Part shown: in pieces, positions 19,338-53,840 of the stretch | How positions within the stretch are numbered: position 1 is the first letter of the stretch | How the letters are laid out: each line of letters starts with the position of its first letter | Assembly (NCBI GenBank): GCA_024195585.1 | Contig: SWBL01000044.1 | Location: 1 to 64,000, forward strand | DNA from: Aureobasidium sp. EXF-3400 | Taxonomy: Eukaryota; Ascomycota; Dothideomycetes; Dothideales; Saccotheciaceae | Reading direction: 5' to 3' | DNA: 64,000 nt | Notes under the pieces: generated by a model | Seen by the model: only the letters and a program-made list of their open reading frames with translations | Database searches by the model: none | Told to the model about the DNA's origin: nothing | Translations under genes and position numbers: made by a program

Positions 19338-19425
19338 TGACATGTCGGCTTTCTCAATATAACTAATGACCATATCCTTCTCAGGAGAGAACGGTTTCGA
19401 TCAATAATTTCAGTAGCAACTCTAG

Positions 19426-23264: not shown

Positions 23265-23691
23265 GGCGAGGCTACATGCGGTCTACACGCTGTGTACGTT
23301 CCAGGATCAACTGAATTAGCCCAAGGGACGCCTCCTGCAGAGAGCAATTTCTCGCCCGGGAAGTCACAAGAAAGGACTAGCAGAGCGGAGATACCTTCGC
23401 ATCCATACACGCTTCCATGCTCGCTTTCATGCTCGCACATGCGCATATAGCCAAGACAAGGGGAATCCTTTGATTCAATTCAAGTATGGGATGATCGAGT
23501 ATGCTCAGGACTCCACCCAGGCAGAACGAGTTGGCGAAAAGGTGGATTCCATTATGTCACAACGTTGATAAGTCTGGAAACGAAAATGTACAGATAGATA
23601 CATGGGAGCATCAGGTTATAGAGCATCTAGCAATCCCCTCGATGCGCAAGGTTACTACATACCAATTAGTCACTCCGACACCTGAGTCTCG
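23265..23691. other. Intergenic between convergent genes
   Basis: 427 bases between the stop codons of the F-box gene and the glucosyltransferase gene. Nothing else is seen. Confidence 0.5.
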
Positions 23692-26600: not shown

Positions 26601-27210
26601 TGACCATAAAAGCCATCAACTGTGAGGGATCACCCCCGATGCTGAAGAATTCAAGACCATTCTCTTGCACAAAGTCCTTGAAGTTTGGATGAGTTGCCAG
26701 ACGAACACGATGACCATACGTGTCTTTCAATACTTTTCCCAACGCAACAAATGGCTGCACGTCACCCCGAGATCCCACGACTTGGATAACAACATTCAGG
26801 CGTGGTGGAGGAGAGATACCGTCCTCGCCGCCTAAAGATGAAGGGATATACGGTGGAGGAGGCGGTTGATCATCCTGCGCACTCTGTATATGATGACGCA
26901 AGGCAGGAGTGAAGATTTGGGATAGACGTCGATTAAGCTGATTGACACGAATGTTGACACGGCCGTCGTCGGTGACAGAGGCCCTTGTTCCAAAACCGTC
27001 TTTCTCAAGGTGAATCTCACCGATGGCGTCGCCATATGCAGGAGGGGGAATGTCATGTTCGGTTGCATCAGGAGTGATGAGGTCGATTCCTTGGAGAGGG
27101 GCCTCCTCGGTGACACCTGCAGGTCCGGTTTGGGAGGCAGCGGCGGCTTGTGCCTGCTCAACAACAGATTGCTGTATCATCGTTTCTGGAATACATCGGC
27201 CACTCGTCAT
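23692..27210 (-). CDS. Sterol 3-beta-glucosyltransferase-like GT1/GT28 protein with Vps13-like segment and UIM tail
   Basis: Three exons on the minus strand, 27210-25748, 25690-25622 and 25567-23692, with introns of 57 and 54 bases, give about 1,135 residues. The N-terminal glycosyltransferase half has VVGSRGDVQPFVALGKVL and THPNFKDFV. The sugar-nucleotide half is rebuilt only by splicing: VVHHGGAGTTAAG, then VPFFGDQPFWG. This is the box typical of UDP-glucose:sterol glucosyltransferases. The PH and GRAM domains of Atg26 are absent. The C-terminal third has GFYDGVTGVVTQPWRGAQKE and GIGKGIGGLIAKPGAAL, reminiscent of Vps13 C-terminal repeats, and ends with a ubiquitin-interacting motif, DEELQRAIKLSLQ. 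An acidic Asp run is encoded by a GTC microsatellite near 24000. The first ATG is at 27210; 27180 is an alternative. The open frame extends upstream to 27288 without an ATG. Confidence 0.85.
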
Positions 27211-28457
27211 TCCGCGAACAGTAACCCCGAGTTGATTCGCCGAGAATGCCGTGGCGCGGCAATAGTGGACAACTGAATGAGATGGCACGACTCTGGTTGA
27301 TCAAAAGGCTTGAGCTCGAAAAGGGAGGCTTTAGATGGATTTCATCACACAAAAGGCAGGTGCGTTTGCGACATCTTTGTGTCCACTAAGGTCGAGGCAG
27401 CAACATTGCGCTCAAGGCTGCGACGTGCCAGATTTGACGACAATCAGACAGAGCAGCATGCGAGCAAACCAATCGGCTTACAGCGATGACGACGTGCAGG
27501 GAGGGCATGAAGGATCGCGAAAAAAGTGGGGGTATGAGCCTAGAGGCTGGAGCAAGGAGTCACTTGCTATGGTAGGCCATGTCACCTCTCATAGGAAAGA
27601 CATGTTCTAAAGAAGAGAAAGATTGAGGAAGAGTCCATAGACGCCGACAAACAAAGACACGCGTGTGCCAAGATGTCGTCGATCAGAGCGGCAGGTCTTG
27701 CCGACTGTGTCGCAATCTTCTTGTCGCACGAAACCGACGTGTTCGTTTTTGCGCATGAGACAACAACACGTAATCTGCTCTGTAAATGGGATCACTGTAG
27801 GATTATCTACTTGGAATTCTCTTGTCTGGCAAAGCCTGTCAAGCGATGAATTGTTCGAAAGTCGAGTGATGGAGATGCCGCTGGCTGCAGTTCACAGACG
27901 CTTTTCTACCCCTCTTGGAAGCTTCATCACTTGGAGCAGCAGGCAACTGGATCATTGAGGATGACTCTGCGATTCATATCTCGCGATCTGGACGAGCGAC
28001 TGGTATACATCGATTTACATTTCCTGAAGCCAATGAGAAGGACGAGTTGACAGTGAAGATGTTGTTATACTAAGGCTTCCCTAAGTTTTTGCTGCGAAAG
28101 AAGTGGCTAGACACGCCAGACGACCCTCCAGCAATCATCTCTAGTTGACCACTGGCGCTCGACATGAACACACGTCGGGAAGATGGAATAGTGGCTATCC
28201 AATTGTACTGACAAAGCAGGCGGCCGATCTTCACGCGACGTTGACGGTCAACCGCCCTCCAATCATGCGAGATGAGAGCAGCCTTCTCACATGAATGATT
28301 CTCGAAGCCGACCTAGAGACAGAGCGCGATGCTTGATGATCAAGCGATATCATCGATCACTCGACAAGGCGTATCGCCAATACAACGGTCAGAAAGTGGC
28401 TACAGGAAAAGGGAGGTCCAGAATTTCCTTTGTGCTTCACACATGCGATGCTGCACC

Positions 28458-28463
28458 CACGTG
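28458..28463. promoter_or_regulatory. CACGTG box (candidate NUC-1/Pho4 site), distal
   Basis: Perfect palindromic E-box in the context CCCACGTGCG, 505 bases upstream of the phosphate permease start. NUC-1 and Pho4, the phosphate-starvation bHLH activators, bind this core. Other bHLH proteins do too. Confidence 0.45.
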
Positions 28464-28658
28464 CGACACTAAGACACCAAATACTCTGACCTTATATCAG
28501 CCGTCTCTTGGATGCCCTCGGCTTGGTCAGATGAATTGGTAGGATACAGCGAGAATGGCGGCCAGGGCGGCTTGGCAGTGGTGAGCCAAGGCTCGGAGAA
28601 GCCCAACGTCAAGACAGTCAAGACCTTGGCCAACTTCCACGACGTTGCTTTTGGTCAA

Positions 28659-28664
28659 CACGTG
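28659..28664. promoter_or_regulatory. CACGTG box (candidate NUC-1/Pho4 site), proximal
   Basis: A second perfect CACGTG in the context CAACACGTGTTTGG, about 300 bases upstream of the permease start and 200 bases from the first. Paired boxes at this distance are typical of phosphate-regulated promoters. Function is inferred from sequence only. Confidence 0.5.
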
Positions 28665-28967
28665 TTTGGATGCTTGAACCTCATTGTTCTGACCGTCCTC
28701 CTTCGCCAAGGAATTCCGATGACACTCGCGAAGCGTTGCAGCATGCGGTGGGTTATGCTTCCTAGAGGGTTTGAATTGGTTTTTGCAGTGGCAGTGTAAG
28801 GCGGAAAGTTGTCTTGGAGATTGTTCATAAGCAATCGAGGGAACAGAAACATTCACTCTCGTCTTCATTCTTCTGTCCATCCTATCCATTCACTTTCTGT
28901 CAAGTGTCGGATTCTCAAGCTTAGCAGCATCTTTACCCTGCAGCTTAGCCAGAATTCAGTCGTCAAG

Positions 28968-31131
28968 ATGCCTGTTCTCCATGAATACACTTACATCTTT
29001 GCCATTGGCACGTTTTTCGCGCTCCTTGAAGCGTACAACAATGGTGCCAACGATGTCGCCAACGCATGGGCAACCAGTGTTTCCTCCCGTTCGGTCACAT
29101 ACCGCCAGGCTATGGTACGTCGATTGGTAGATGATCATATGTATACAGATCATGCTAACACATGATGACTAGTTCTTGTGTTTGATATTCGAGCTGACTG
29201 GTGCGCTCGCCGTCGGTGCAAGAACTGCATCGACCATCAAGAACGGAATCATCCCCCTCAGCGCATTCCAGGGTAACGCTCCTGTGCAACTTCTCGCCTT
29301 CACCTGTGCCGCAGCAGGTGCATCTATCTGGGTCATGTGGTGTACACGTCACAATGCTCACGTTTCTTCCACCTACTCGCTCGTCTCCTCGATTGCTGGT
29401 GTTGGTGTTGCCACCGTTGGTGTCAAGGGTGTCCAGTGGGGATGGAACAGTATGTGAAACTCTCGTCTTCGTGGCTCGAGCTCAGCTGACACAATCTTCT
29501 AGACGGCTCTGGTCTTGGTGCCATCTTCGCCGGTCTCGTTATGGCTCCCTTCATCTCGGCTGTCTTCGGTGCCACTATCTTCATGCTCGTCAAGACAACC
29601 GTCCACATGAGAGTCAACCCTGTGCCTTGGGCTGTCTACACCTCTCCCTTCTTCTTCCTGATCGCCGGTACTGTCTGCACACTGTCCATTGTTTACAAAG
29701 GTTCTCCCAAGCTTGGCCTTAGCAAGAAGCCCGGATACTGGATTGCCGGTGTCTCTGTCGGCTCTGGCATGGCGCTTGCTCTCTTGGCCGCTTTGTTTTT
29801 CGTCCCCTACGTCAACCAGCGTGTCATCCGCAAGGACTATACCTTGAAGTGGTACCACGTCTTCCTTGGACCTCTTCTTTTCTCGCGCCAGGCTCCCGCC
29901 GATGCCGAGTTCGCCATGGTCCCCAATTACGCCGTCATGGATCACGATGACCACAGCGACGTCAAGGCCAAGACCTCCGCTCCTCCCTCGATCGAGATGA
30001 CTGGCAAGGGTGGTGACTCCGAGGTCACCACTGGCGAACTCCGTCGCAGATCTATCCACGTCACCGATGAGGGCATGAGCAGCACCGCTTCGTCTCCCGA
30101 AATCATTCCTCAACGCAGAAACAGCATCACCAACGAGAACCCCAGACAAGCCTATGCTCGCATGCTCAAGGAAGCTCGCGATCAACACCACGCAGATCTT
30201 CGTCAAGAACGTGGTCCTATCGGATGGGCCATGCGCACTCTCCACGAGAATCAGCTCGGTGCCGGCTCCATCTACGAACTTCACAACATGAAGGCCGTCC
30301 TCAAGTGCATTCCAGCTGGCATCGTTGTCTGTCTCATGTACGGTCTTTACTACGATATCCACAAGGCTCAGCTGGGTGTCCTCGGTACTCCTGAAGGAAA
30401 GCGCATGGCTCGTGTTTACGCTCATGCTCCCCGCTACGCGAACGAGGTTGAGTACCTTTACTCCTTCGTCCAGGTCATCACTGCTTGCACTGCTTCGTTC
30501 GCTCACGGTGCCAACGATGTTGGTAACGCTGTCGGTGTTTGGGCTGCCATGTACGCTGCCTGGTCGACTGGTTCCTCCATCAAGGCAAAGGAAGCAGTGC
30601 CGACTTGGCAAATTGCGGTGATGGCCCTAACTATCTGTTTCGGATTCATTACATATGGTTACAACATCATGAAGGGTGAGTTTGAACACTTTTCGGAACT
30701 ATCCAAATTATTTTTCCTTCATACTGACATTTCTACAGTCATGGGCAACAAAATCACCTACCACTCACCTTCTCGTGGTTCTTCCATGGAGCTGGGTGCC
30801 GCTATCACTATCCTCATCTTCTCGCAGTACAAGCTGCCCGTCTCTACTTCGATGTGTATGTCCACTTCCCCCCAACCTTGCGACATCATGCTAATCGTAT
30901 CTCCAGGTATCACTGGAGCAACTGTTGGTGTCGGCCTCTGCAACGGCTCATTCAAGGCCGTCAACTGGAGTCGTGTTGGACTTTTGTTGTTCTCGTAAGT
31001 CTTCCGCATTTGTGCCTACACCGTTCGAACAATTACTGACTTCGCGACGCAGTTGGATCATGACCATCCCCATTGCTGGTCTAATCGGTGGTCTTCTCAT
31101 GGGTATCACGCTCAATACCCCCAGCTTCTAA
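28968..31131 (+). CDS. PHO89: Sodium/phosphate symporter (PiT family, Pho89 / Neurospora PHO-4 type)
   Basis: Six exons (28968-29114, 29173-29449, 29503-30675, 30739-30855, 30907-30994, 31053-31131) give about 626 residues. The inverted-repeat signatures of PF01384 are both present: EAYNNGANDVANAWATSVSS near the N-terminus and AHGANDVGNAVGVWAAM near residue 473. Between them lies a long hydrophilic cytosolic loop (about 280-390), and many membrane segments flank it. The last exons supply PVSTSMCITGATVGVGLC and the terminal helix. The carrier takes up phosphate with sodium at the plasma membrane, usually induced under phosphate starvation and alkaline conditions. Two CACGTG boxes upstream support NUC-1-type control. 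A long antisense frame at 29499-30611 is a compositional shadow of the third exon. Confidence 0.93.
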
Positions 31132-31513
31132 GTGGAAGTGCGGTATGATATGGAATGGGGAGTACGATATTTGGTTCCCCCACGTTTTTATGGCTTGTTT
31201 GTTTGAGTTTGATAGATTATTTCTTGCCCATGATATCCTCACGACTGGAATTCAACTTTAATGAACGAAAGAAAAAGTTCTTATTGTTTCTGTCTCCTTG
31301 TTCCTGCAGCGAGCTAGTAAAGACAGAGGTTCACTAACCAATCTTCGACACTAACCTCTTCCGTGGTCGGATCTAGACACGCATGAATCTGTGACCAGTT
31401 TCGATGACAATTGAGGAAGACCGGGGCGAGTGTGGTGTAATGGCTGCAAACACCCAGATCTCGTATGGTAGGACTGCGTTTTGCTGAGTCTGACGCTATC
31501 GCGAACAAGGTAG
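31132..31513. other. Intergenic
   Basis: 3' flank of the permease. No upstream continuation of the following hydrolase relic can be recognised here. Confidence 0.4.
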
Positions 31514-31762
31514 TTGTACACATATGACAAGGTTCAAAAAGTAACGCCTGGGAATGTGGTGGAATGTAAAATTGGTATCTGGGCAATGGGTATCGAGCAC
31601 GAGGCTGGCGAAAGCATCACGCTCGAGATCAGTGGCCACTCAAGGGGCATCGCGGAATTCGGCGAGGGCAAGCAGCACACTTACGATAGGGGTCAGTACG
31701 TGCTACACCATGGCAAAGACTATAATAGCCATTTGATTTCTCCTGTTGTGCCAGTTTTGTAG
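31514..31762 (+). pseudogene. 3' relic of a CocE/NonD-family (X-Pro dipeptidyl-peptidase-like) hydrolase
   Basis: A frame of 82 codons without a start ATG reads YDKVQKVTPGNVVECKIGIW, then AGESITLEISGH, and ends HHGKDYNSHLISPVVPVL before a stop. This pattern (PGxVVE-IW, then AGESI-L-ISGH, then G-Y-SHL--PV-P) is the final beta-strand part of the C-terminal jelly-roll domain of CocE/NonD hydrolases. The catalytic alpha/beta-hydrolase domain is missing, and a TAG lies directly upstream in frame. It is a truncated remnant, next to a rhamnosidase relic in a gene-poor stretch. A short new gene using the fragment is possible but unlikely. Confidence 0.6.
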
Positions 31763-33030
31763 AGGCAATACGCATAGCTCATTGAGGTTTTGGTCGAGTC
31801 AGACAGCATGACTATTGTGTTTCATGTACTCGAATGCACAATGGTGCAATGCCACGTTTAGTTGCGATATACACGATTGACTTCGGGTCTCACATCGATC
31901 GCCAAAGAGGCTGAAGAACATATTAACCATCTCAGTTATGGAGAAAGGTCGCACTAGAACAACTTTAACAGTCATGGATCCACCATGAAGCAGCCTTTTG
32001 CTGATTGACGGCAGTTTTGTGATTACTGCCTGAGATCTCACGATTTTGCAGTACGAGAATACGCGCCGTAGGAATCTACGTCAATAATAATCATACCCTC
32101 CGAGGAACCTCAGACTTTGTTCTATCGTTTACTACTGTGGGCTCAAGGTACATGCTGATCAGTCTATGCTAGACAGGCGTAGGAACGCTACTGCAATGTT
32201 CCTGAAGCGTCGAGCAAAGTTATGACCAAAAACGATCCGTTTCTAGGATATCCCTGGTTCCAGTCCTTGCCTGTAAGAAGTTTTTGCAGAAATCCCATCG
32301 TCGCCCTTCTAGCTCACGACAGCCGAGAGAGACTAAAAGACTTCGGAGATCTCTCCACTCATTACACTCCGCAAAACCACTTAAGCGAGAGCATAGGCAG
32401 CTACTACAAAGTGAGTGCCATAGCGAACAGGGTTGTCCACCTGACAGGTCGAGTGTGATACATATGGGAAACGCGCGCTTTGCCCACCAAACACAGACTC
32501 CAATTCCCAGAGAATTTTCGTGATGCATAGACCATCGCATATCCACCTATCATCACTATCATCATGATCTGAAGAACTTCTGTCTCTTCTGATTGGCCGC
32601 TGGAACTACACATCGAGGGCTTCAAGCGACGAAGATGGTTAAGCCTTCGAATCTACTATCACATCAAGTCGACTTCGAGATACACAATCTGGGGTGTGAA
32701 ACCATTGTCAAGCACACAGATAACCTCGGCTGATCTCAAGTTCCAAGGCCACTGAGCCTGCTTTCTCTATCATAACAAGCCTTGGAATCTGCAACAAGAT
32801 TATCATCTCCAAGTACATGCCAGTCGAGAGTACCAGAGCTAGACTCATCACGACACGGCAAGCAGAATCTGGAAGGAGGAATCCTCCATCGATACATAAC
32901 TTTGAATGCCTTGAGATTGGATCAGTCAAGGACAGGACGAGACCAGGCAACTATCACACACTCATCGCGATGACTCACATCCAACTAGTAGCTTCGAGTG
33001 TGGAAATGGTCGTGAGTGCTCCAAGTAGAC
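31763..33030. other. Gene-poor stretch between two relics
   Basis: About 1.27 kb with only short patternless frames. It may hold older decayed sequence, but I recognise none. Confidence 0.4.
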
Positions 33031-34110
33031 TCAGCTGTAATACTGAGACAGTTGAAACCGTTCACCACCCTCAACCTCAAAAGCACTACCTCGTACAACA
33101 CGTCCATTAACAACAGTGACAACCGAGCTATCCATCATCAATCCTCCACTCGGCATCGGTAACCTCACAGTCCCTTTCGTTCCAGCCGGAGCAAAAACAC
33201 TCATTGCCACAAGTCCCTGTCTATCAACCCTCCACTCAACCCCAATCTCACCAAACGGAGTAGCTTGACTTCCCCTCGCCCATTCCAACCCCAGCGATTG
33301 CGGAACCACCTTCCACTCACGGAACCCCGGCGTCACAGCTTGAATACCAAGAACATATCTCGTCAACTCCGCCGTGGGGCCTGAAGACCACGCATGACAC
33401 AAAGAAGTACCATCACCTAAGCCCGGTTTCCCATCTCCACTCACCGCTTCCCAGAAACAACCAGTGTAATTCGCATTAGACTGCAACGTCATAGGTACCC
33501 AAAGATTATCCAACAGATGTTTAGCAGACACAGCATCGTGAGCGGCAAAAGCAGCTCGTAGATGGTAGGAAGACGCAAACGGACTGATGATTCTGGAAAC
33601 TCCAGGGGTGGAGTTGGAGAAAGGTAGAGCGCCGTGGGGGACGAATAGTTGGTTAGCCATTGCTTGCGAAATACCCAGTTTGGTGTGATTGCCTTGGGGG
33701 GTATTGGCGAGGATGGCCATGGCATTGGCGTCTTGAGCGATTCCTTGCGTTTGAGTGTCTGAGATGATGTATGCGTTGGTGGTACTGTTGTAGAGTTGTT
33801 GATCAATAGCTCTTCGAAGATTTCCGAGATGCCGCTGATATCTGGTTGTGTTGAGGCCGGCAACAACGAGCATTGGTATAACTTCCTGCAATGCAAGAGC
33901 ACAGACGACATTGAACTTTGTGACGATGCCCGATTGCGCTGGATCTTAATAATTCCAATCGCCGCCGAAACTAGCGTCAAAGAGATTGAACAGTCCATTT
34001 GAGAGAGTCTGTGATGCTGCCCAATCGAGCATACGAGATGCTGCTGGCGCATGTGAAGCATCATCTCTTGATTAGACTCCACATCGACTTGTATGTCTTC
34101 GGAGGTCAAT
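33031..34110 (-). pseudogene. GH78 alpha-L-rhamnosidase pseudogene (C-terminal part)
   Basis: The minus strand from about 34110 to 33031 reads as the C-terminal part of a fungal alpha-L-rhamnosidase: RMLDWAASQTLSNGLFNLFD, then FGGDWNY, FNVVCALALQEVIP, QDANAMAILA, SLCHAWSSGPTAELTRYVLG and a terminal beta domain. TAA at 33946-33948 interrupts the highly conserved block directly after GDWNY, and another in-frame TAA lies at 34072-34074. No GT-AG intron removes the first. The (alpha/alpha)6 domain is incomplete upstream and the N-terminal domains are absent. The rest of the frame (287 codons) is undamaged, so decay is recent. Intact enzymes release rhamnose from plant pectin side chains and glycosides. 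Sequencing error cannot explain the missing 5' half. Confidence 0.75.
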
Positions 34111-34431
34111 CAGAGAGACAAGGGCATGATAGTCATGACGAATCGGGAACGTGCCATGCTCCAGAGCGCTCGAGCCAAAGAGGCTGTCGCAAGTTTATGG
34201 GATTTCGCGTCAGACAAAGCACCTATCACCAACGTCGTGTAAGCTTCTATTAGAGAGGCCTTTATAGATGTGTTATGAATACCTTGTACTTTACTATTAC
34301 ACCCAATCAATTAGGTAAGAAGACTTAGGTGATACCTCTTTCCTCCTCAACGCGAGTCTGAATGAGCAGAGAGTCCTCTGGGCCATCCAAAGTCACCTCA
34401 TACAAATCCCTCCGTTCCTCTCAACAGGCAC
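34111..34431. other. Intergenic, possibly older rhamnosidase remnants
   Basis: A short gap between the rhamnosidase relic and the stop codon of the RGS-LOV gene. A weak protein-like minus frame (34110-34310) may be degraded rhamnosidase sequence but cannot be assigned. Confidence 0.35.
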
Positions 34432-36578
34432 TTAAAAGTCCTGGAACGGTCTCGCTTCCCTTGGACTACCGCTCCGCTCACCCACAAATCCTTCAGGAGA
34501 CAAACCACTCTTTCCCTCTCGCCGCAGATACTCTGCATACAATTTTCCAGTCTCGGCCTTGAATCTCGGACTTCTTGCTCCTTCTCCGCCTCTAACGGGA
34601 GTGTCGAGGGATGATCTGCCCATAACATTTGGAGGTGGCGACGGAAAGTTGTTGTACACCTCGGTTGGTCTGGTGAGATTGCCCGTCACGACCTCTTGCT
34701 CGACCATGACAATCATCCAAACACCGACCTTCTCATCACTTCCGAGCATGGGCGTACAGTGGATCCAACGTGGCTTTCCTTCGATGCTGATTCTACGAGG
34801 ACTGTCGGGCAACGTCGGAGTAGAGAGCCAGGACACCTTGGCTGTCACAGGAGTACCATGAGAAAGACTGTCGAGCACGCCGTCTCGGACTTCTTGAGGT
34901 CCTCCAAGTCGGTCCATAAACTTTGTTTGGAGCAGACCCGGAATCCGCAGAGCAGGAGAAGTGAAAGTGATACGCAGAGATGGATAGGGTCGAACAAGAA
35001 GATACTGGATATGTATGTCAGTCTCTGGTTAAAATTGAAAGCACAAGGAGACTTACGTTCTGGTATACACCAGGAAGACGTCCAGAGGGACCAAGGGAAG
35101 GGTGAGGCCATAGTCCGCGTTCGAGAGAATCGTCCATACCAAAGACTTTACGGCCATGTCGAGTAGGAGCAGTAGGATTACGCGAGGAGGTAATTGGCGT
35201 CGAGCTGCGCGACTGACTGCGTTGGCGGGTATTAACGGCATCCAACTCCTCATCGCTCATCATCTGTCCCAATTCTCCCAGCACCTGCGTTGGCTTGCGA
35301 TTGCTCCGGCCACGGTATCGTTCTTCAGCACGGTCGTTTGCCAGGAGTTTCTCGAAAGTCTCGATGCCTTTGCCGCCTTCAATCAGATGTGTGACGTCGA
35401 CCTGAGCACCGAGGAAGTATCGCACGTTGCCTTTGTTATCGTACAGCGGTGCGATCAACAGGAGGTTCATGAAGGGTATGCCATCTCGTCGGCTGTAAAC
35501 AAATCAGCACAAGCACTGCGGATAGTTGTAGATCCAGACTCACTAGTTGAGAAGTGTTTCGGTAATCTCTTGGCCGGCTCTCAAAGCTTCTATCAATCGA
35601 TGTATGCTAGCCGAAGATGACTTGGGACCCTGCAAAAAGCGGCAGTTGCGACCGATCACAAAATCTTTCTGATAACCGCTTATGTCGTAGAAGGCTGCTT
35701 GTTATCAGCAAATCATGTCCGAGCAAGGAGAGAAAGACGCTGTCACCTTCAGAGGCATAGACGATGGGGTTGTCGGGCAGCGAGGGGTCGCTGATGCAGT
35801 AGACTTCGGCCAAAGAGGGGATCAGATCACGCAGAACGGGCGCAATGTTGCCAGTGATTTCCTTGACAAGGCTGTCGGTCACAATGTGTACGAGGCGGTG
35901 TGTGAGATATGCCGGCAGGGCATCGTCGACCAACTCTTGCACCACCAAGCGCGATCGTTCTTGGAAGCTTTTCTCCATGACAGCTGCCGGCCGTGGGATG
36001 TCACCAGTGAGCGAGGGCATATTATTCGCTAGCGAGTTGGCGTATTCTATGGCAGCAACAGCTTTTTGCGTGTCGATATAACTCTCGAGAGATGGCAGCG
36101 TGTAGGGTCTGTACTGGGTGAGGAAGCGATGGAAGCGGGTAGATGCTTGGTGGTCGCGAAGAATAATGTTCAGGTGGTCGACTGAGAAGAAGCGCGTGGC
36201 TAGGTGTTCCATATTCGAGTGCGAGACCGAGGGTGGGGGAGGTTTGAGATCGTAGTATTCGTGCTCGTCGCCGGAGCCAGAGTGTGGAGCTGTCGTAGGT
36301 TCTGTGTGATAATCTTCGTGTGCTTCTTCTTCAACAGGATCAAAAATGGATTGTTGGATTGGCGAGACGGATCCCGCACGCGTCGACGCCATGTCTGGCA
36401 CTTCGGGCGGAGGCTCGAATGCGGAAGCAACATTCGCGTGTTGCTGCACCTTCCTGGGCAAGATGTTGGTCGCGCTGAACGTCGATTCGATTCCTGGAGA
36501 CTTCCTTCCGCTTCTGAAAATCGATGGTAAATGTCGTTTCGACAATCGCCGTGATACGTGCCCGTCTGCGTCTTGCAT
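34432..36578 (-). CDS. RGS-LOV blue-light photoreceptor (BcLOV4-like)
   Basis: Four minus-strand exons, 36578-35747, 35694-35544, 35492-35057 and 35004-34432 (introns 51-52 bases), give about 663 residues. Order of parts: a disordered N-terminus; an RGS-like helical domain (about 123-245); a LOV domain (about 258-365); a basic Ser/Arg-rich linker; and a second PAS-like domain read as YLLVRPYPSLRITFTSPALR. The LOV core has GRNCRFLQG with the flavin-adduct cysteine near residue 295 (codon 35642-35644), plus NYRRDG, MNLLL and the conserved glutamine in GAQVDV. All residues needed for flavin photochemistry are therefore present. Characterised fungal RGS-LOV proteins (Botrytis BcLOV4) bind membrane phospholipids in light and should act on G-protein signalling. 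The frame is open above 36578 without an ATG. Confidence 0.92.
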
Positions 36579-37552
36579 CTTATGTAGGATGGTGTGCCAA
36601 TGGCCAATCGCCAATCATACAACGCTACGCACAAGATGATGAATGATTCGCTTGTCGCGATTGAGCCGCACAATGTGTACTTGGACCTGATCCGAAAAAC
36701 CTGGGAAGGAGAAAGAGAGTCGGCGTACCTACAATGAGCAGCCTTGTAGATGTCGAGAATGGGAGTAAATGTCATGGACATTCTCGAGTCTTTTAGGTTC
36801 AGCATCTCGCACGGAAGGCACTTGCGACCTAGCACAAGATGAGAGCTGCAGTAGCTACGACATGATGCAAGATACAGGCATGGCCCTGTCAGATGGCTGC
36901 AGGAGACGGAAAGTCGTGAGATGAACATGGGGAACCCGAGTGGGCAAACGTCATGATTCTGCACCTCGACGTTCGCGTTGTGACACCCATTCTGTTCTCT
37001 CAACTCGATGCTCCAAAGAATTACTTGAACAATCACAATCTCTGACTCTCGCTGTGCCGTGTTTTCTCGAAGGCGCTGCTGTGACTTACAGAGTGCAGCC
37101 TTGTTGAGAAAGGTTGTGGGAGGGATGCGAAGGATCGGTCTCGTGGAGAAGCCGATCACAAATCCAGCCCTCGAACGTGCATGTTAGATTCTGCACCTGT
37201 GCACTGTGTGCGTATCGACGGCTACATCTCCGAAAGTAGTACGAGCCATGAGAATCGAAGTCGTACTGCACGCATTCACGAAAAGTTCATGTCGTCGTTA
37301 ACAGCATCTCAGACTTGTGGCTCGAGTTGGTGATATGAAACAGCTCGTGAAAGCGGCTAAAAGCGGTTGCCGGTCGCTGCCTGTATCAGCCGATAGGTGC
37401 CAGATACGCCTTCCTATCTAATATCAAGCACATGGCCGAATAAGGACACCGCAGCGGACAGCGCACTTCACCGCGTGACATGATCCTCCTATGGCAGTAT
37501 ATAGGACGCCGAGTTAGCTTCGAGCTCTCAGCAACCGAATACAACAGCAACA
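36579..37552. other. Divergent promoter region, RGS-LOV and GNAT genes
   Basis: 974 bases between two start codons. The minus strand has long, low-complexity open frames up to 37159, which could contain a 5' leader or an unrecognised upstream exon of the photoreceptor gene. Confidence 0.4.
37498..37503 (+). promoter_or_regulatory. TATA box of the GNAT gene
   Basis: TATATA sits 55 bases upstream of the start at 37553, supporting that start with a very short leader. Inferred from sequence only. Confidence 0.45.
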
Positions 37553-38266
37553 ATGCCTCTTGAAATACGACAAGTGGAGAAGGGTGACATGGCCGACATT
37601 GCCCAATTGGACCAGATCGCCATGCCGAGTATCGGAATCAATCATGCTATCAGAAAGGTTCAAAAGGAAGAAGGCATGGACGTCACATACTCCTTTGCAA
37701 GATGGATATCGACTGGGTTTGAGCACCAAGCAGCGACGTTCTGGAAGGTGGTGGATAGCGAAACTAACGAGCTGGTCTCGATCGGCAAGTTCACGTTCCA
37801 GTACCACGAAGGCGAGGCGTATCAGGATACACCCATCGAAGGCGAAGAACCTCCGCCCAAGAGACTGGTTGACTTCTTTACATGGCTCAACAAGAAGTCA
37901 GACGAGTTTGCGAAAGAGAACTTTGTGGGAAGACCGCATGCGTGTATGTGATATTAATCCATGTCAAGAGCAAAGAGTCAGGCAGAAGACTGACACAGTG
38001 GTCGAACAGATCTTACATATCTCGTAACGCACCCAGAACATCGCAAGCGTGGAGCAGCGCACATGCTGCTTGAGAAGGGAACGCAACTGGCGGATAAAGC
38101 AGGACTGGACATGTACCTTCAGGCGTCGCTGATGGGAGCTCCGCTGTACAAAAAGTTTGGATTTGAAGTGGTGGAGGTACAGGAAGTCGACCTGAGTCAG
38201 TATGGGGTAGACACAAAGGATACCCGAACGTACATGAAGAGGGTGGCTCGGGGGGTTGGTCAATAA
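37553..38266 (+). CDS. GNAT-family N-acetyltransferase
   Basis: Two exons, 37553-37943 and 38010-38266, flank a 66-base intron and give about 215 residues. After splicing, RPHAYLTYLVTHPEHRKRGA continues into AHMLLEKG, which is the acetyl-CoA pyrophosphate-binding strand and loop (motif A, R/Q-x-x-G-x-G/A; here R142-K-R-G-A-A). MYLQASLMGAPLYKKFGFE follows, the conserved motif B with its YxxFGF signature. The N-terminal part (MPLEIRQVEKGDMADIAQLD) is the usual first strand and helix. The acceptor molecule cannot be told from sequence; relatives in fungi are often small-molecule acetyltransferases. It is transcribed divergently from the RGS-LOV gene. Confidence 0.87.
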
Positions 38267-38750
38267 AGTGAATGCGAACTGACCGTTTGTGGGTTGTCGT
38301 ATATATGCAACGGCGGTGTACAGGAACAGGTTCCCGGGCTCAGAATGATTTATCACCTATAGAACGATTATTGCACCTGCTCTCGGAGTAGTCTCTTCTT
38401 CAGAGAGCAGTATACAGTAGAGTGTTATGAAAGATTGACAGGGGTGTCTTGAAGTGATCTCCGAGGAGGTGCTATGATTGGATGTAGAGAGTCTTTGTCG
38501 AAGCTTTCTCCAGGAAAGTTTCTTGAGTGGGCCTAGGCGGGCTGTCTCGTCCGGCCGCCGGCGACCAAGGGACGGTTCAGCGGTTTTGGCAGGTCCTTGA
38601 TGCGACGGTGGAGCGGTTCCTTGCCTCTAGGTGCAGGTCGGAGAGTCAAAAGGTGCAGACATTCGCGGCGCCGAGAGCTGAAATCTGCATGGTGAACGTC
38701 ACTGCATATGCACGACTGTGACCATGTATCTCCACACAAACAAAACAACA
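38267..38750. other. Intergenic
   Basis: 484 bases between the GNAT gene and the next plus-strand gene. No feature is seen. Confidence 0.5.
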
Positions 38751-40867
38751 ATGAGTGTACACGACAAACCTCTACCGGCACCGCCGTCGCCGACTCTCAC
38801 GAATCCGGACATGGTGCTGCCCAGTATGTTCGTGCTGGACGTGGCAGATGAAGCGCGACAGGAAACAGAGGGACCGCCGTCGCCGTCGTACCTGCAGGCT
38901 CAATCGACCAAGACGCTGGGAAACAAACGGAAGTCGCGACCGAATCTCCGCACGCCTTCCCAATCGCCTTTACAAAGCTTTGGATCGTCACCGACTCTGC
39001 ATGTCGACAGTCAGCAGTCATGGGAGGAGCGGCGACTCAGTTTTGCGGCCAGCAGCATCCTCACCGAAGACCTCGAGAACATGCAGATCCCGCGCTTCGA
39101 GTCGAGTCTGGACTCGGATACCGAAACGCTCGACGAGGACGACGACTTTGACATAGACACGCCCAGCGAGATTGAAGACCAGTATGATCACGTCAACAAG
39201 ACGGAGCAGTCGAACGTGACGCTCATGCGCGCCGAACTCATTCTTGCCAATGCGAAGAAGCGTCTCAATGTACGTCTGGAGAGCACGTGAGGTATACCGG
39301 TCAAGCTAACGAGCCTCAGGTCATGGACCAGAACCTGCGAGGAGCCCGCGAGATTGGCACTCCCTTGACGGCCGCAAATCTCAAGCGCGCCACCTCGCTC
39401 ACCGCCGCTCCAGTCGTGCGCAACACGTCCTTCTCCCGGCCTCGCTACCTTCCACACAATCCCCAATCGCCCAACACGCAGCATATGCGCGTCCTCAGCG
39501 ACTCCAACGTGCAACCCAACGACCGCCGCTACGTGTCCTTGAACATCAACTCGAATCCCTCTTGGACCACAAATCCCGTCCGCAATACTCGCAGCTCCGA
39601 GCTGCTGCGCTACCCAAAGAGCCCACTGAGCCCAGACCCGCAACTCGATACCGTGTCCGAGGAGCAAAGCGTGCGCAGTCAGACATCGGCCCACAATCTA
39701 CGAGAACAGATGATGCAGTTGAGAGGCAGGATATCCACTCTGAAAGAGCGCGCTCAAGAAGAGAACTTGCGGAGACGGAGCACAAACAACTTGCGAGAAA
39801 ATTGTCCTCTGAATAACGCAGACACTTCTCCAGGCGCTACAGGCTCGCCCAGACCCAGACTTGCGCGAATCACAAAAGCCAGCAATGTTCCTGGTGCCTG
39901 GGTGTCTGCCGAGACCATCGACGATCATGACAACGACGGCTTTCAACCGAGAGAAGAGTACATGGACGACGAAGAAGACGACGACGACAACTACACCCTC
40001 CCACACTCTGGCTCAGGCAGTACAGATCGCACCTCTACCCCAACCACGACAACCACCGACCACTCAAACCCCACCAGCCTCTACGAAGATGCTCCTGAAT
40101 CTTCCCCATCAGCCGGCCCACGCCACGAAGACCGCGACGACGCCTTTGACTATTCCAAGTTCTTCTTGCATTCCGCTACAGGCAGTTTCGAGCCCAACAC
40201 TCCTACTCGGCATACCCGCACTACATCCCTGAGCTCTTCCGACTCGTGTTTGACCGCGCGCGCATACCCTGTCAACCAAGATCTTCCCACCACCGGTGTC
40301 GAAGATGAACAAGAACTACAACCACCACCAACGCCAGAAACACCAGAAGCCCTCCGCCACATCGAAGAAGTAAAACTTCCCTCACGTATCCAACACCGAC
40401 GAGGTCTATCAGCAGAATCTCTAGCCACAATCGCCACCTTCGAGACCGCCGAGGAAGGCCATCAAGCCTCAATTGCCCAATGGCTTTCCCGCTCCACCTC
40501 TGCAACATCAATCCATAATCTGAACGACTTACCCAAACCCAGTCGAAGCCATCCATCCACTCAAGCAGCTCTGCCCAGTCCTATCCTGCCATCTACCTAC
40601 ACCCCTGCATCTGCACAGCAAGGTCAACAATACATTTCCATCTCTCCTTCTGCAACCACTATTGCCGTTTCTGCTCTTTTGGATCCTGCAAAGGGGCAAG
40701 GGCTGGGTAGCAAAGATGAAGCTTTGGTGTATACTCTGGTTGAGAGTCTGAGAGAAGTAGTTGGGGAATTGCAACTGGGCGCTGGAGGCGAGGAGAGAAG
40801 AAGATGGTTGAGACGACGTCTTGATGAGGCGAGGAGGGTTTTGGAAGGTGAAGATCTTGAGAGGTGA
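38751..40867 (+). CDS. Large disordered fungal protein of unknown function
   Basis: Two exons, 38751-39269 and 39320-40867, with a 50-base intron in phase 0, give about 688 residues. The spliced junction reads AKKRLNVMDQNLRGARE, a continuous helix, which supports the join. The N-terminus (MSVHDKPLPAPPSPTLTNPD) is proline-rich. The middle has an acidic run (DEEDDDDN), a short charged coiled coil (LREQMMQLRGRISTLKER, about residue 310) and many SP/TP sites suggesting phosphorylation. The C-terminal 60 residues form a conserved-looking helical unit with VYTLVESLREVVGEL and RRWLRRRLDEARRVLEG. No enzyme domain is recognised; a scaffold or cytoskeletal role is only a guess. An ATG at 38724 in the same frame would add nine residues. 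Confidence 0.75.
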
Positions 40868-42212
40868 GATTGGTGGGTTCTGTCTTCTGAGATTTGATTT
40901 ACTCTTTTTGTCATTGCCATTTTTGACGGCTGACGGCATGTTTTTGGATGCTTGTTTATTCTGTTCATTCTTGTTTGCTATTTTGTTGTTATGCTTCTTT
41001 TTGATACCCTTCTCTTATATATTTGATCTCTTACATAATTTGTATATTTTCGCCTTATTTCTTATGTTATCGTTTCATCGGACAAACTACTGCAGTTATG
41101 CATTGCACTCATTCTGATATCCTCAAATCCCCTGAAGCCAATGTGTCCTTCTTGCCTAGTACATGCAGATACCTATGTATCCACTCTACTTTCTCCTCCT
41201 TTCTTCATCAGCCAATCTCACTACTCAGTAATAATTAGATACAAGTACTACACTCAAGCAATAAAATCCAGCAGACAAAGAAAAGAAGAAGGGTTGGTAT
41301 GGCTATATGCATGAACAAAAACGCTTCGTACTAGCCTATCTCACAACATCCGACGGAAAATGCAGCTAAAAATAGATGGGGAGGATGGAGAACAGAGTCA
41401 ACACTTTACCTTAAAGGCTTGGGTTCTATCACATCCGCAGTACATTCACAGCACATCATAGCACGAGTGCAAGCATAGGTACGACAGGCACAGCACAAAA
41501 AAGGGCATCAGCAACGCAAGGCACAAAAGAACATCAGGTTAGCAGGAAACAAACGTGCCCCTAAGATACGTATAGTGAACCGTTTATCCCAGGTTCATCC
41601 ATCCGCAATAAACAAAAGAAGAAGAAAAGGAAAAAGGAGAAGAGGAGAAAAAGAGGAGAAAATAGCTCTTAAGGTACTAAGTTTTTGGATAATCCATTGT
41701 TAGTGGTTATTGGAACCTCTCATACTTATGAGCAAAAAGGATAGACGAGGGATGATTGAGCTGTATTTCTGCAGCGATGGATGATGGCAGGACTTAGAGT
41801 GGTGACTTGTTTTTACCTGACTGATTACAGACTGATCAGACGACTGAGGTGAGGATAGAAGAGAGACGGAAACGAAATAATGCGCAAAGGCAGACCTATT
41901 GAAAGATGTAATAACCTGTAAGCTTGCCTAATTTGTGACACGAAAGAACGGGATGAGCCAGCCAATGTCAGACTACCTCAAGCAGAGGATAGAAAGGCCA
42001 AGCTGTGTTTCTACCGCGTTAGATCCATTGACCTTTTTTACCTTATCAGGATGGAATTCAATGATTACCGCATACCTTTCGATGAGTTTGGAGACAACGA
42101 ATCGTAGTGGAATACAATACTGGATGACGCCGCCATCTACAGAAAATACAGGTTTCGTAGTCTGCCACTGACCAGTTTCTCAACCTACGTCGTCTACTCA
42201 TAAGATATCTCT
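40868..42212. other. Intergenic between convergent genes
   Basis: About 1.35 kb of 3' flanking sequence with T-rich (around 40900-41050) and purine-rich tracts. No coding frame is supported. Confidence 0.5.
41614..41662. repeat. Purine-only tract
   Basis: An uninterrupted run of about 49 A and G bases built from AAG/GGA units. It is simple sequence in a convergent intergenic region with no evident function. Confidence 0.5.
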
Positions 42213-43679
42213 CTAAGTTTCATGGATAAGACCTGGCTCTGGGACCTCGTCGTAATTACCACTACTGTGTGATGACAATGCCCCCCACACACAAGCGAGT
42301 ATCAAAGCCGAAGAAGCCAGTGTGACCAAAGGTTCTACATAAGAACTGACGGCAAAGACGGAGAGAAAATAGCCTGCAAACACAGGTAACAAGCTGCCAG
42401 TCACCAGTAGTGTCAGAGATAGCCTTGTACGGCGCAATGAGGGAAATCTGGTTCGGATCCAAGAATGATAGTCGTTCCAGGTCGACTCAAAGGTAATTTG
42501 ACGACGCAAAGCCTCAACTTCAGCAGGACTCCTCCGAAAGACCGAGAGAAGGGATAAAAATACCCTGATGACAGAGTTGGATATCCCCAGGAAGGTGAGA
42601 ATTAGTTTCCAACTGGAATGGCCTCTGAAGAGACTTTGTGTTTGTGGCGCCACTACCCTCTTGAACGGTGGCGGAGTAGTCGGATGAGCCAGCGTCTCAT
42701 TGCACACCTCACTGTATATCCCATGGTCCCAGTCCGTCCAGCAGCTGTCTCGCATGTCGTTGTGGGCACTCCAGACTTGCAAGATATATGCTTTACAGGC
42801 AAAAATCCCAAAGACGAGAGTGAGTAGGATAGAGATCCAGCCTACAGGCCTGTTGAGTCGGTCTGTCCATTTCCCCCATTTCGATTTGAGGTTTTGTGTT
42901 GGTCTCATCGATGAGGAAGCTTGTGAGGAGTTGGGAGCGATTGGAGTTGCCGGCGCGGAGCCAGAGTTAGGATTGTTGGACGGAATAGCCGTAGATGCTA
43001 CTTGTGATGATGAAGGTGCCATTGGTTGAGGTTGTGCTATTTGAGGTGTTTCTGGAGGAGATGGTGATGTCTGATGTGTCACGATTGCCGATTGTATTGC
43101 TGCCGGATGAGATGACGTCCCTGGAGATGCTCCTGTCTGTGCTGCTGGCTGCGAAGCCGATGGCGTCAAGGCCTGCAAGTGTACAGCTGAAGTAGCATTC
43201 GTTCTGGATCTGATGGTTGCCATGATTGAGAGTCCGACAATGTATTGCCAGCTGAGTACAAGTTTGATTGCCGACACCTGGTTGTACGGAGAGAACTCAT
43301 AGGATGTCGTCAAGAAGGAAAGGTCGAAGGAGTGGCCATGAGAGTGGCTGTGGGACGATGGATGGGCCAAGGGGCGGTGCAAATAAGTCAAGGGTGTTGA
43401 TTGGATGACTTCCGATCGGAGGCCGGCTTCCGCATGAGGTACATCTTCTTTGTACCCGTGGGGAAGTTCTTGCACCTTGCGGTGAACAGGAGGACTGATG
43501 TCTGAGACAATTTTCTTTTGGAAGACTGTATCCAGATCCATCACCCAGCGATCATACTTGATCGTGCTGTGTCGACTAAGTCGGACGGTACAAGGTTTCA
43601 TGGGTTGACTTGTCGAGATAGCGATGTATCCTTGCATGTTTTCGTTTCTTTGTCCCCGCCTGTTTCTTTGTATCATCAT
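42213..43679 (-). CDS. Membrane protein of unknown function
   Basis: A single minus-strand exon. The C-terminal 190 residues carry four likely membrane segments: VGWISILLTLVFGIFACKAY, a pair around LILTFLGISNSVIRVFLSLL, and LTLLVTGSLLPVFAGYFLSV with SALILACVWGAL. Between the first two lies a Cys-containing loop (DSCWTDWDHG, EVCNE). Before these is a Ser/Pro/Gln-rich disordered region. The first ATG (43679) gives 488 residues. An internal ATG at 43223 (MATIRSRTNATSAVHLQ) gives 336 and may be the real start, but an accidental open stretch of about 150 codons is unlikely, so the longer form is reported. The architecture resembles fungal proteins annotated only as hypothetical membrane proteins. 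Confidence 0.65.
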   Translation of the reverse strand: MMIQRNRRGQRNENMQGYIAISTSQPMKPCTVRLSRHSTIKYDRWVMDLDTVFQKKIVSDISPPVHRKVQELPHGYKEDVPHAEAGLRSEVIQSTPLTYLHRPLAHPSSHSHSHGHSFDLSFLTTSYEFSPYNQVSAIKLVLSWQYIVGLSIMATIRSRTNATSAVHLQALTPSASQPAAQTGASPGTSSHPAAIQSAIVTHQTSPSPPETPQIAQPQPMAPSSSQVASTAIPSNNPNSGSAPATPIAPNSSQASSSMRPTQNLKSKWGKWTDRLNRPVGWISILLTLVFGIFACKAYILQVWSAHNDMRDSCWTDWDHGIYSEVCNETLAHPTTPPPFKRVVAPQTQSLFRGHSSWKLILTFLGISNSVIRVFLSLLSVFRRSPAEVEALRRQITFESTWNDYHSWIRTRFPSLRRTRLSLTLLVTGSLLPVFAGYFLSVFAVSSYVEPLVTLASSALILACVWGALSSHSSGNYDEVPEPGLIHET

Positions 43680-43773
43680 CTAGCCATCGTTGAGCAAAAG
43701 AAACTCCATCGTTTCGTGTCCTCCGTTCGCTTCCACTTCTGAATATCTTTGCACTTCCAGGTCTCGTCCTAGC

Positions 43774-45108
43774 TCAGTCAACCTCTGACTCTCCACCGGG
43801 GATTTCAGCCGAGCTCTCCAGTTCTTCGTGCTGATATCCTTGCTTGACCTCTTCAATCAATCGTTCCAGTCCCTCTTGGACCTCTTCTTTTCCATCGCAC
43901 ACCAACTCCTCATCTGGAACAGAAAGGAATATCAAAGGTCCCAAATTTTCGACGTCCTCCACGAATAAATCTTCCATGGAGAGATAAGTCAAGTCCAGAA
44001 CTTCTTTCAAGAAGCGAAGGAATTCCAATGTCAAGTTTTTAGGAGGCTCAAACACGGGCATGCGTACCTGACTAAACTTTAGCGTTCGCAGCTGGTTCTT
44101 GTGCGCTTGGAGCAACTGGACAAGTTCGCGGTACTCGGTATCTGAGCGCGTAATGGAGATGGATTTTAGCGGGCTCGACATGATAGTCTGCCAGATTCTT
44201 CCTTGATACTCCTTATCAAGCGCTATCAGAGGGCTTGTGTCCAGCTCCTGATCACCTAGATGGTGTCTCGATACCTCAAGGCGGGTGAACCTCGACAGAA
44301 TCTTGATCTTCGCATAAGATCCTTCTTGTTGCCAGACGTTGACATGCAGGTCGAAAGCTTTCGTGGATTCTGAGCCTGTATGGGGCAAGACTGAGTCGAG
44401 CACACTTGTCGGGCCCAGTGCCAGATTCTCCAGACTTCCAGACTGGGTGGAGAAAAACAATTTGAGTGCCGTAAACGGGTAATTACTGTGCCGCGAGGCC
44501 GTCAATACTGCATCTAGCGCTGTAGACGGATCTGGCTCAATGAAGCTGAAATCTTGGAACCAAGCTTCGTAGGCATAACCTCGACGTCTGAGCTTGTTAT
44601 CGTGGACGTCATCGTAGATTCCTAGTGCCACCTTTGTGTTTTGACATTTCTTGAGGTTCTCTAAAGCTGAGACCAACATCTCGACATGATGATTGCGGTT
44701 GACGAAACCTCTGTGCATCGCTTCGGCCAAACGGTATCGATTTGACCAGTCTCTGGAGCGATACTCACCAAATCTGACCTCAGCATTCTCTGCCAAGCGA
44801 TAGGTACCAAAGGTAATGCATGTGAGATGGGGACCGAAGGTCGGATGGGCCGTGATATCAACCAATGCTTTCAAGCTCTGGTAAGTGAATATGAAGCGAC
44901 GACGAGAGAAGTACTTGCGTGCAAAAGGCACAGTAGCGACTTGATGCATGAGCCGAGAGGCCAAGCGCATGTTTTTCAGATCGGCCGGATCGCACTCGTG
45001 AGCAATCATGCTGAGCAGCTCATTCGGGAGAATCAGGCATTGAGAGGGCTCGGCTATCGGGACCTTGCTGGCAGCATCGCTGGAAGGCAGGTCTTCAGAT
45101 GATGCCAT
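43774..45108 (-). CDS. F-box protein
   Basis: A single exon of 444 residues. The F-box lies at about 25-65: LILPNELLSMIAHECDPADL, then KNMRLASRLMHQVATVPFAR. The remainder is leucine-rich without a named repeat and shows the pattern common in fungal F-box proteins (LTCITFGTYRL, LKSISITRSD, LTLEFLRFLKEVL), ending in an acidic tail. It should act as a substrate adaptor of an SCF ubiquitin ligase. It lies 94 bases downstream of the membrane-protein start on the same strand. It is not similar to the other F-box protein of the window beyond the F-box itself. Confidence 0.8.
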   Translation of the reverse strand: MASSEDLPSSDAASKVPIAEPSQCLILPNELLSMIAHECDPADLKNMRLASRLMHQVATVPFARKYFSRRRFIFTYQSLKALVDITAHPTFGPHLTCITFGTYRLAENAEVRFGEYRSRDWSNRYRLAEAMHRGFVNRNHHVEMLVSALENLKKCQNTKVALGIYDDVHDNKLRRRGYAYEAWFQDFSFIEPDPSTALDAVLTASRHSNYPFTALKLFFSTQSGSLENLALGPTSVLDSVLPHTGSESTKAFDLHVNVWQQEGSYAKIKILSRFTRLEVSRHHLGDQELDTSPLIALDKEYQGRIWQTIMSSPLKSISITRSDTEYRELVQLLQAHKNQLRTLKFSQVRMPVFEPPKNLTLEFLRFLKEVLDLTYLSMEDLFVEDVENLGPLIFLSVPDEELVCDGKEEVQEGLERLIEEVKQGYQHEELESSAEIPGGESEVD

Positions 45109-45807
45109 CCTTTCAGAGGAAAGAGCTCCAAGCGAGTGAAAGTCGAGAGTATGGCAGATATTTGCGTGAAGGTGTTGTGACGGGACAGCGCAAGCGTCAC
45201 CAGCGGCTGATGAAGTCGCACGAGATTGCAGGTCTGGATGTGCGCTTATTTAGTGGTGGATACGTGGCGATGGTTGACGATAACGTTGTTGATATGTCGA
45301 TGCAGAAGATCGAGAAAATGATGGTTGAGTGAAGAAGATGATTGCAAAGCGAGTTGCGGCACGCGCTGATGGATCTCCAGAGCGACGGCGGGTGTTGTGA
45401 AAGTCTCGAGAGGAAAGCGGCGGACCTGGGTTGTTGAATGTGCAGTGGTAATGATCTGCGGACTGCTTCATGTGAATGCAGGAAGTCGCAAACAATGTTC
45501 AAGTGAAGGGGCCGCTTGACAACGAATTAGGGGCGACTTCCTCATCCTAGTCCGAGTTGGACGCGACACAATCACTCACTCACTCACTCACAGTGGATAA
45601 CCTCAGAAAGGAGACCTAGAAGAAAACCATCTATTCTTCATTGAATCGAGAACGAAGATTCATAAATTATGAAAAACAAACAAAAACAAGACATGACCCA
45701 GCTATCCCACCATTCATGCAACCATGTCATTAAAAACTCGCAATCCATATCCGAAAAAAAGACTGAAGCCCACTAATGCAAAACAGACCAGAGAAGAAAA
45801 TCATCAT
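45109..45807. other. Intergenic
   Basis: About 700 bases between the F-box start and the insulysin stop, both on the minus strand. It includes the TCAC microsatellite listed separately. Confidence 0.5.
45572..45591. repeat. TCAC microsatellite (5 units)
   Basis: Five perfect tandem TCAC units in the intergenic region 3' of the insulysin gene. Confidence 0.8.
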
Positions 45808-48800: not shown

Positions 48801-49293
48801 TGCCCATGAAGAGCAGATGCTCGACGGCGTGGGCCATGCCGGGCATATCGTCGGCATCGCTGAAGCTGCCAATGTTGACGTCCATGGCAGCGCTGGCCTT
48901 GTCCGTGTCCGGGTCGTGGATCAGCAGCGCCTCGAGGTCGTTCGGTAGTCGCACCACGCGGTATGTGCGGTTGTCCAACTGTGGCTTCTCCATTCCGTCG
49001 GTAAGAACACTGGCTCTAGTCGAGGCGGATCGCTGAGGGAGCGACATATTGTCTGCGCTGCTTCCGACCATGGCGCCTGGGCTGAAGAAGAGGGGGCTGC
49101 GCGAGTGTTGGCGATGATGACGCTGAGACTGAAGATGGCTCTGATGAAACTGTCTCGTTCTCTTGTTTGATAGAGCGGTTGATGAAAGTGAAAAGTGTCT
49201 TACTCTTGTCCAGGACTGCACATGCTCAAAGCAAGCGAAACGTTGAAGGCGAAGAGCTGCAGCATTCTTCGCCAACTCCTCAAACAATACCAT
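45808..49293 (-). CDS. STE23: Insulysin-type M16 metalloprotease (Ste23/insulin-degrading enzyme)
   Basis: Three exons, 49293-48793, 48728-46229 and 46175-45808 (introns 64 and 53 bases), give about 1,122 residues. The inverted zinc motif HAVEH (155-159) lies in MAHAVEHLLFMGTEK, followed after the splice by FPVENEYNQYL, and the third ligand is in RAVDSENKKNL. Typical blocks follow: GHEGPGSVLAYIKAKGWANGL, and RSKEQLGYVVQS with ERSPEYLEKRI in the C-terminal half. These enzymes cut short peptides inside a closed chamber; yeast Ste23 processes a-factor. A Lys/Glu/Ser-rich insert precedes the last 50 residues. The first 75 residues are basic and Arg/Ser/His-rich, like a mitochondrial presequence. 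A second ATG at 49071 (MVGSSADNMSLPQR) would give a cytosolic form, so dual targeting is possible. Confidence 0.93.

Positions 49294-49844: not shown

Positions 49845-53840
<3,996 letters not shown>

Follow-up and report, generated by a model that had tools for sequence, protein, structure and literature searches.

Does every fungal protein that joins an RGS-like domain, a LOV domain and a PAS-like domain behave like BcLOV4, and move to membranes in blue light? The question is raised by a gene on the minus strand of a 64,000-nucleotide stretch of Aureobasidium sp. EXF-3400 (GCA_024195585.1, contig SWBL01000044.1, positions 1 to 64,000). This whole stretch is called the window here, and all coordinates are window positions. 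The original prediction for this locus was a complete RGS-LOV photoreceptor of the BcLOV4 type. The gene and its LOV domain stand; the BcLOV4 label is not supported. We consider it quite probable that the product is a soluble receptor for blue light. In this reading a LOV adduct shifts contacts among an RGS fold that is dead as a GTPase-activating protein (GAP), the LOV domain and the PAS domain, and a protein partner is switched as a result. This degree of confidence belongs to the reading as a whole. The alternatives weighed below are not exclusive of it or of one another, and the likelihoods do not sum to one.

The claim of a complete four-exon gene at 34432..36578 is borne out, as splicing reproduces exactly these coordinates. 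As predicted from the sequence, the gene runs from 36578 to 34432, and its exons (36578-35747, 35694-35544, 35492-35057 and 35004-34432) join into 663 amino acids plus a stop codon. Introns 1, 2 and 3 measure 52, 51 and 52 nucleotides and are all GT-AG; each has a CTGAT or CTGAC branch-like motif that starts 14-17 nucleotides before its 3' end. The three exon joins (YASE/AFYD, NY/RRDG and VYQN/YLLVRP) lie in gap-free, conserved stretches of a 25-row alignment, made up of the window protein, a single paralogue from what is called group B below, and 23 homologues out of the 120 listed. The parts of the gene are as follows.

35747..36578, minus: exon 1, amino acids 1-277, with the N-terminal tail, the RGS-like helical domain and the first LOV strands; open frame from the ATG at 36578 to a GT donor
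35853..36218, minus: diverged RGS-like domain, amino acids 121-242
35695..35746, minus: intron 1, 52 nucleotides, GTGACA...CAG, with a CTGAT motif
35544..35694, minus: exon 2, LOV core including GRNCRFLQG
35642..35644, minus: codon of Cys295, the expected adduct former, within GRNCRFLQ at 292-299
35493..35543, minus: intron 2, 51 nucleotides; if it is retained, a stop immediately follows LLN
35057..35492, minus: exon 3, the remaining LOV domain (NYRRDG, MNLLL, Gln358) and the linker
35372..35813, minus: LOV domain, amino acids about 256-368, spanning exons 1-3, from phmmer matches to LOV structures and Pfam PAS_9
35402..35404, minus: codon of the conserved Gln358, in GAQVD, 63 residues past the cysteine
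35057..35371, minus: linker, amino acids 369-473, with no clear sign of a polybasic amphipathic helix
35005..35056, minus: intron 3, 52 nucleotides, GTAAGT...CCAG, with a CTGAC motif
34432..35004, minus: exon 4 and stop codon, with the C-terminal PAS-like domain and tail
34699..35004, minus: PAS-like C-terminal domain, amino acids about 474-575

An intron 3 acceptor 18 nucleotides earlier is in frame and would give 669 amino acids with a 34-nucleotide intron. It was rejected because the intron would be very short, the CTGAC motif would lie outside it, and the six extra residues have no counterpart in homologues. There is also a 327-amino-acid open frame at 36200-37183, on the minus strand in another frame, that overlaps exon 1. 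This is taken as a chance frame, since homologues keep the receptor frame.

The LOV domain carries the residues that photochemistry would need. The motifs of the original prediction (GRNCRFLQG, NYRRDG, MNLLL and the conserved glutamine) were all located: GRNCRFLQ at 292-299, NYRRDG at 327, FMN at 335-337, MNLLL at 336 and GAQVD at 356. This means that the domain has Cys295, the asparagines of NY and FxN, and Gln358. Residues 259-361 match Phototropin-2 LOV2 without a gap (phmmer against PDB, E 1.8e-29), and Pfam PAS_9 matches at E 5.8e-19, both far beyond chance. The Cys-to-Gln spacing of 63 is that of the BcLOV4-group proteins of the same genome. Among 121 group-A rows (120 listed matches plus the window protein), the LOV motif was not found in the searched form in four (P0008, P0059, P0087 and P0088). 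The remaining 117 all have the cysteine and NY, and 116 have the glutamine at the fixed spacing; the exception is P0067, where it comes four residues later. Flavin binding would be expected from membership of this family, and a photocycle may be expected by the same analogy.

Which group of LOV proteins does the gene belong to? Protein searches were made for three groups, A, B and C, with the best 120 of 1986, 1302 and 2510 matches listed respectively. The eight best matches to the window protein among its best 120 of 1986 are all from Aureobasidium and are 72-92% identical; the top match, P0001, is 85% identical over its full length. Genome searches with exon 1, PAS_9 and RGS located two further pairs in the same genome that link an N-terminal domain to a LOV domain: C4/C213 (group B, 86% amino-acid identity within the pair) and C486/C189 (group C, 80%). 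A LOV tree was built with 63 rows, 20 from each group plus three outgroups, using 55 of the 360 listed proteins. In it, A plus B (93/94) stands apart from C (93/95), with inner branches above 1.2, supports under the starred level and long outgroup branches. Group A is not one resolved clade, and four lichen-fungus rows adjoin B. Many Dothideomycetes and lichen fungi are among the listed relatives of A and B.

Group C includes Botryotinia convoluta P0269 (593 amino acids), whose cluster numbers 32 sequences, and also Sclerotinia P0260. It is taken as the BcLOV4 group because of P0269, in which the LOV cysteine is residue 292 and the glutamine residue 355. P0269 reads CGKTSFFKSFKKYK at 111-124 residues past its cysteine, which we take to be the polybasic helix region 403-416 of BcLOV4. 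For BcLOV4, Q355N and a helix at 403-416 have reportedly been described. The cysteine agrees with a published construct name, BcLOV4 C292A (PMC10793642). The window protein is thus placed in the ascomycete group A. Groups A and B together are the sister of C, the BcLOV4 group, and by this placement the window protein is not a BcLOV4 orthologue.

Two observations on the members of these groups stand by themselves. Public names in groups A (P0025, P0047, P0095) and B (P0145) include Phototropin-2, K+-channel ERG and Phototropin-1A; such names probably come from PAS similarity, and mislead. In group B, the C4 copy of the frame (L037) has MNKRRSADS where the C213 copy (L036) has LNKRRSADS, and their start points may therefore differ.

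The first alternative to consider is that the protein is, after all, a functional BcLOV4-like receptor, in which light frees a lipid-binding element, takes the protein to the plasma membrane and brings the RGS domain to G-alpha. The domain order is the same, and the C-terminal domains of the window protein and the BcLOV4 group are homologous by profile. The protein also has basic segments. An N-terminal one at amino acids 13-26 has a charge of +5, which 51 of 2000 shuffles equal, and is common to P0001. The linker holds a +4 14-mer with two prolines at amino acids 432-445 (357 of 2000 linker shuffles reach +4), and also RAEERYRGRSNRKP, which is +4 with a moment of only 0.22.

BcLOV4 is described as having a polybasic amphipathic helix between the LOV and C-terminal domains (PMC8993538). 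The best amphipathic 14-mer without an inner proline in the window linker (amino acids 369-473) has a net charge of 0. An amphipathic 14-mer of at least +4 with no proline inside it is present in 54 of the 102 group-C rows, 6 of the 96 in A and none of the 106 in B; out of 120 rows each, 18 C, 24 A and 14 B rows were dropped, as their linker could not be cut out. P0269 is among the C rows with such a segment, and nearly half of the C rows likewise fail this criterion. As for the N-terminal segment, one of at least +4 occurs in 9 of the 71 A rows whose tail is 70 amino acids or longer. Anionic-lipid binding through a BcLOV4-like linker helix is therefore most likely absent.

Together with the separate group, the BcLOV4-group pair that this genome also carries and the replaced GAP residues described below, this makes a BcLOV4-like function unlikely. 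The original prediction is not supported here on two counts. The LOV tree, the C486/C189 pair and the Pfam RGS counts given next speak against the BcLOV4-type assignment. The expected blue-light move to the membrane finds neither a proline-free polybasic segment in the linker nor, at three aligned positions, the GAP residues.

The N-terminal domain is harder to name. An HMM search for RGS and LOV, proposed with the original prediction, found PAS_9, while Pfam RGS (PF00615) had no match to the window protein at E<=1. At a limit of 10, Pfam RGS matched 0 of 70 A and B rows, in a program that mostly filters out matches above E ~0.1; at the same setting it matched all 48 group-C rows tested. The label 'RGS-like' hence rests on fold and profile evidence. 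The structure model has low confidence and no secondary structure up to amino acid 120, and is helical from 121 to 242. With the AlphaFold model of the window protein, RGS-type chains are the top 27 among the 50 VIA rows listed, and the best Foldseek E for this domain is 0.85. A comparison of the N-terminal profiles of groups A and C gives E 1.1e-4 and a probability of 56.5% over 109 columns; none of 200 shuffles scores as high, and a reversed control gives E 0.12. These results point to a diverged RGS fold. The proposed layout of RGS-like, LOV and PAS-like domains in BcLOV4 order accordingly holds by fold and profile, and its RGS part does not hold by Pfam.

What would such a fold do? In an hhalign alignment, which is approximate, RGS4 E87, N88 and N128 align to Tyr159, Thr160 and Glu178 of the window protein. 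Over the 25 rows, Glu is found at the E87 place in one and Asn at the N88 place in none. Two further RGS4 residues are, as we take it, Asp163 and Arg167; the former is kept as Asp219 and the latter has become Ala223. The first three are among the four sites (E87, N88, I114 and N128) whose mutation is described as lowering RGS4 GAP activity by more than 90% (PMC3434218). Motif counts tell a similar story, after excluding rows without a LOV motif or with the LOV cysteine before residue 175. Of the 101 C rows, 86 have EN..F, against none of the 112 A rows and none of the 120 B rows; a YPRF-like motif in the last helices is found in 97, 2 and 0 rows of the same sets. A loose [IVL]N[IL] motif occurs in 59 C, 19 A and 4 B rows. 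Most likely, then, the RGS-fold domain does not speed GTP hydrolysis.

A second alternative, which overlaps partly with the one above and with the one below, is that the diverged RGS has kept its GAP activity, or that it binds G-alpha without acting as a GAP; either way the protein would be a light-gated regulator of G proteins. Six positions within the domain are invariant over the 25 rows (H135, L136, K172, A176, A180 and N181), and MoRgs5, an RGS-type LOV protein of Magnaporthe, is stated in a review to bind two of three G-alpha (PMC10056346). MoRgs5 is described with an RGS domain, whereas in group A the EN..F motif is gone in 112 of 112 rows and the YPRF-like motif in 110, and we hold this alternative to be about as improbable as a BcLOV4-like function. 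The least probable idea is that the N-terminal helical domain is unrelated to RGS and is some other dimerisation module that signals by a change of dimer: the absent Pfam RGS matches (70 of 70 A and B rows, mostly filtered above E ~0.1) and the Foldseek value speak for it, and the 109-column profile match with its shuffles and the top 27 VIA rows speak against it.

The reading of a soluble receptor with a GAP-dead RGS fold would work as follows. Blue light would produce a Cys295-flavin adduct. Gln358 and the post-LOV helix would respond, altering the packing or pairing of the RGS-fold, LOV and PAS domains. The altered packing or pairing would then switch whether a protein partner binds at the surface of the RGS fold or the PAS domain. 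The gene, its LOV residues, its group and the homology of its domains are shown by the analysis; we infer the output step, the partner, and the loss of GAP and lipid activity.

The 975 bp upstream of the gene give no sign of a light-regulated promoter in the forms searched: GATCGA is absent in both directions (0.66 expected), and GATC shows no enrichment, with 4 copies where the window predicts 4.6.

The genome (G000) is 53.4 Mb in 717 contigs. Its RGS and PAS matches are paired by score. Beyond the window on its contig, two stretches of 10 kb have matches on C194 and C112, for the most part at 73-83% DNA identity. The paired matches and these diverged stretches fit a strain that is a hybrid or was doubled long ago. 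A counterpart of the receptor gene in a second subgenome was not found in searches of the whole genome with DNA from window 13000-58900. A search with 32500-39000 gave one other match, of 640 bases at 68%, on C46. Searches with 39000-58900 and 13000-32900 gave scattered matches only; the window itself was not listed, so the sensitivity of such long queries is uncertain. Protein searches with exons 1 and 4 recovered this gene and both copies from group B.

Collinearity was compared for window about 63360-64000, and for C44:60000-80000 against C194:44000-73999. Collinear subgenomes, at about 68-83% DNA identity, run from window ~63,385 rightwards into C194. Left of ~63,385 the window has no DNA match to the adjoining 20 kb of C194, and among 115 frames tested there the sole protein match, at 37%, is to the rhamnosidase frame described below. 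The receptor gene sits in the stretch that is unpaired with C194.

Near the 3' end of the receptor gene, at 33034-33945 on the minus strand, is a 304-amino-acid frame with an Alpha-L-rhamnosidase C-terminal domain (Pfam Bac_rhamnosid_C, E 6e-13), which may have introns or be a remnant. Further away are an adhesin-like single open frame of 1764 amino acids with a terminal GLEYA domain (14040-19331, plus, E 4.1e-25), an M16 (insulinase-type) peptidase (46194-48758, minus) and a USP7-type ubiquitin hydrolase (50153-52699, minus). The first 2000 bases are an AT-rich contig end, with a GC content of 36.6% against 46-55% in the other 2-kb blocks.

LOV proteins in fungi are not limited to White collar-1 (WC-1) and VVD. 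According to a review, two further types exist, those with RGS and those in which no partner domain is recognisable, and both have been studied very little (PMC10056346). The second type takes in Zt_Lov2, Zt_Lov3, LovA (Fusarium), BcLOV3 (Botrytis) and lov-u (Verticillium), as described: LOV proteins without a named RGS, in genomes that also have an RGS-LOV gene (PMC9512790, PMC10056346, PMC7493669). The window protein fits this class, as it has no Pfam RGS match and an RGS-LOV paralogue in the same genome. In the cited descriptions, as far as available, the N-terminal fold of the Zt_Lov2/LovA/BcLOV3 class is not named. We see roughly an even chance that these receptors are in fact RGS-LOV-PAS scaffolds with a pseudo-RGS, light-gated, with the G-alpha face lost and the lipid helix missing, after an early ascomycete split from the BcLOV4 type. 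If so, one ancestral design gave a lipid and G-protein branch and a branch with a new output. What would be new, should this hold, is that the 'domainless' class hides an RGS fold and shares the whole BcLOV4 architecture. No description of a cryptic RGS domain in this LOV class was seen among the open-licence papers searched; one may exist elsewhere.

This matters in practice. BcLOV4 is in use as a single-protein optogenetic membrane switch, and labelling every such layout 'BcLOV4-type' would predict membrane recruitment that the sequence does not support. Light-driven membrane recruitment of the window protein should not be assumed. A cryptic RGS fold would also offer a concrete hypothesis on the output of a class whose role is called unknown (PMC9512790). 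Finally, the three sister receptors of this one genome, which differ in two elements thought to matter, would then be a natural comparison set.

Compared with known systems, the plant Phototropin-2 LOV2 (4eep) aligns with the LOV core gap-free over 103 residues, but the window protein has no kinase and a single LOV domain. WC-1, found in the same genome (C47/C236), likewise has a LOV domain with GRNCRFLQ; the WC-1 LOV has an insertion after NCRFLQ, and the window LOV does not. With BcLOV4 and RGS-LOV proteins it shares the order of RGS fold, LOV and C-terminal domain, the Cys-Gln spacing and a homologous C-terminal domain. It differs from them in standing outside the Botryotinia/Sclerotinia group, without Pfam RGS, a polybasic linker or the RGS4 GAP residues. 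LovB (RGS-bearing, Fusarium), MoRgs5 and Zt_Lov1 are grouped with the BcLOV4 type by published description, not by the tree.

BcLOV3 and LovA are not among the listed matches (best 120 each of 1986, 1302 and 2510), and may belong to A or B. BcLOV3 is called a short LOV in a review (PMC12941744), and its Monilinia counterpart is listed in a table at 836 amino acids (PMC7827745). For Zymoseptoria, Zt_Lov1 is given with a Pfam RGS, and the available text names none for Zt_Lov2 and Zt_Lov3 (PMC9512790). The set of Zt_Lov1, Zt_Lov2 and Zt_Lov3 matches groups C, A and B of the window genome. Z. tritici IPO323 P0095 is among the listed group-A matches; its contig of 6,088,797 bp is presumably chromosome 1, going by size, which would make it Zt_Lov2 (ZTRI_1.2082).
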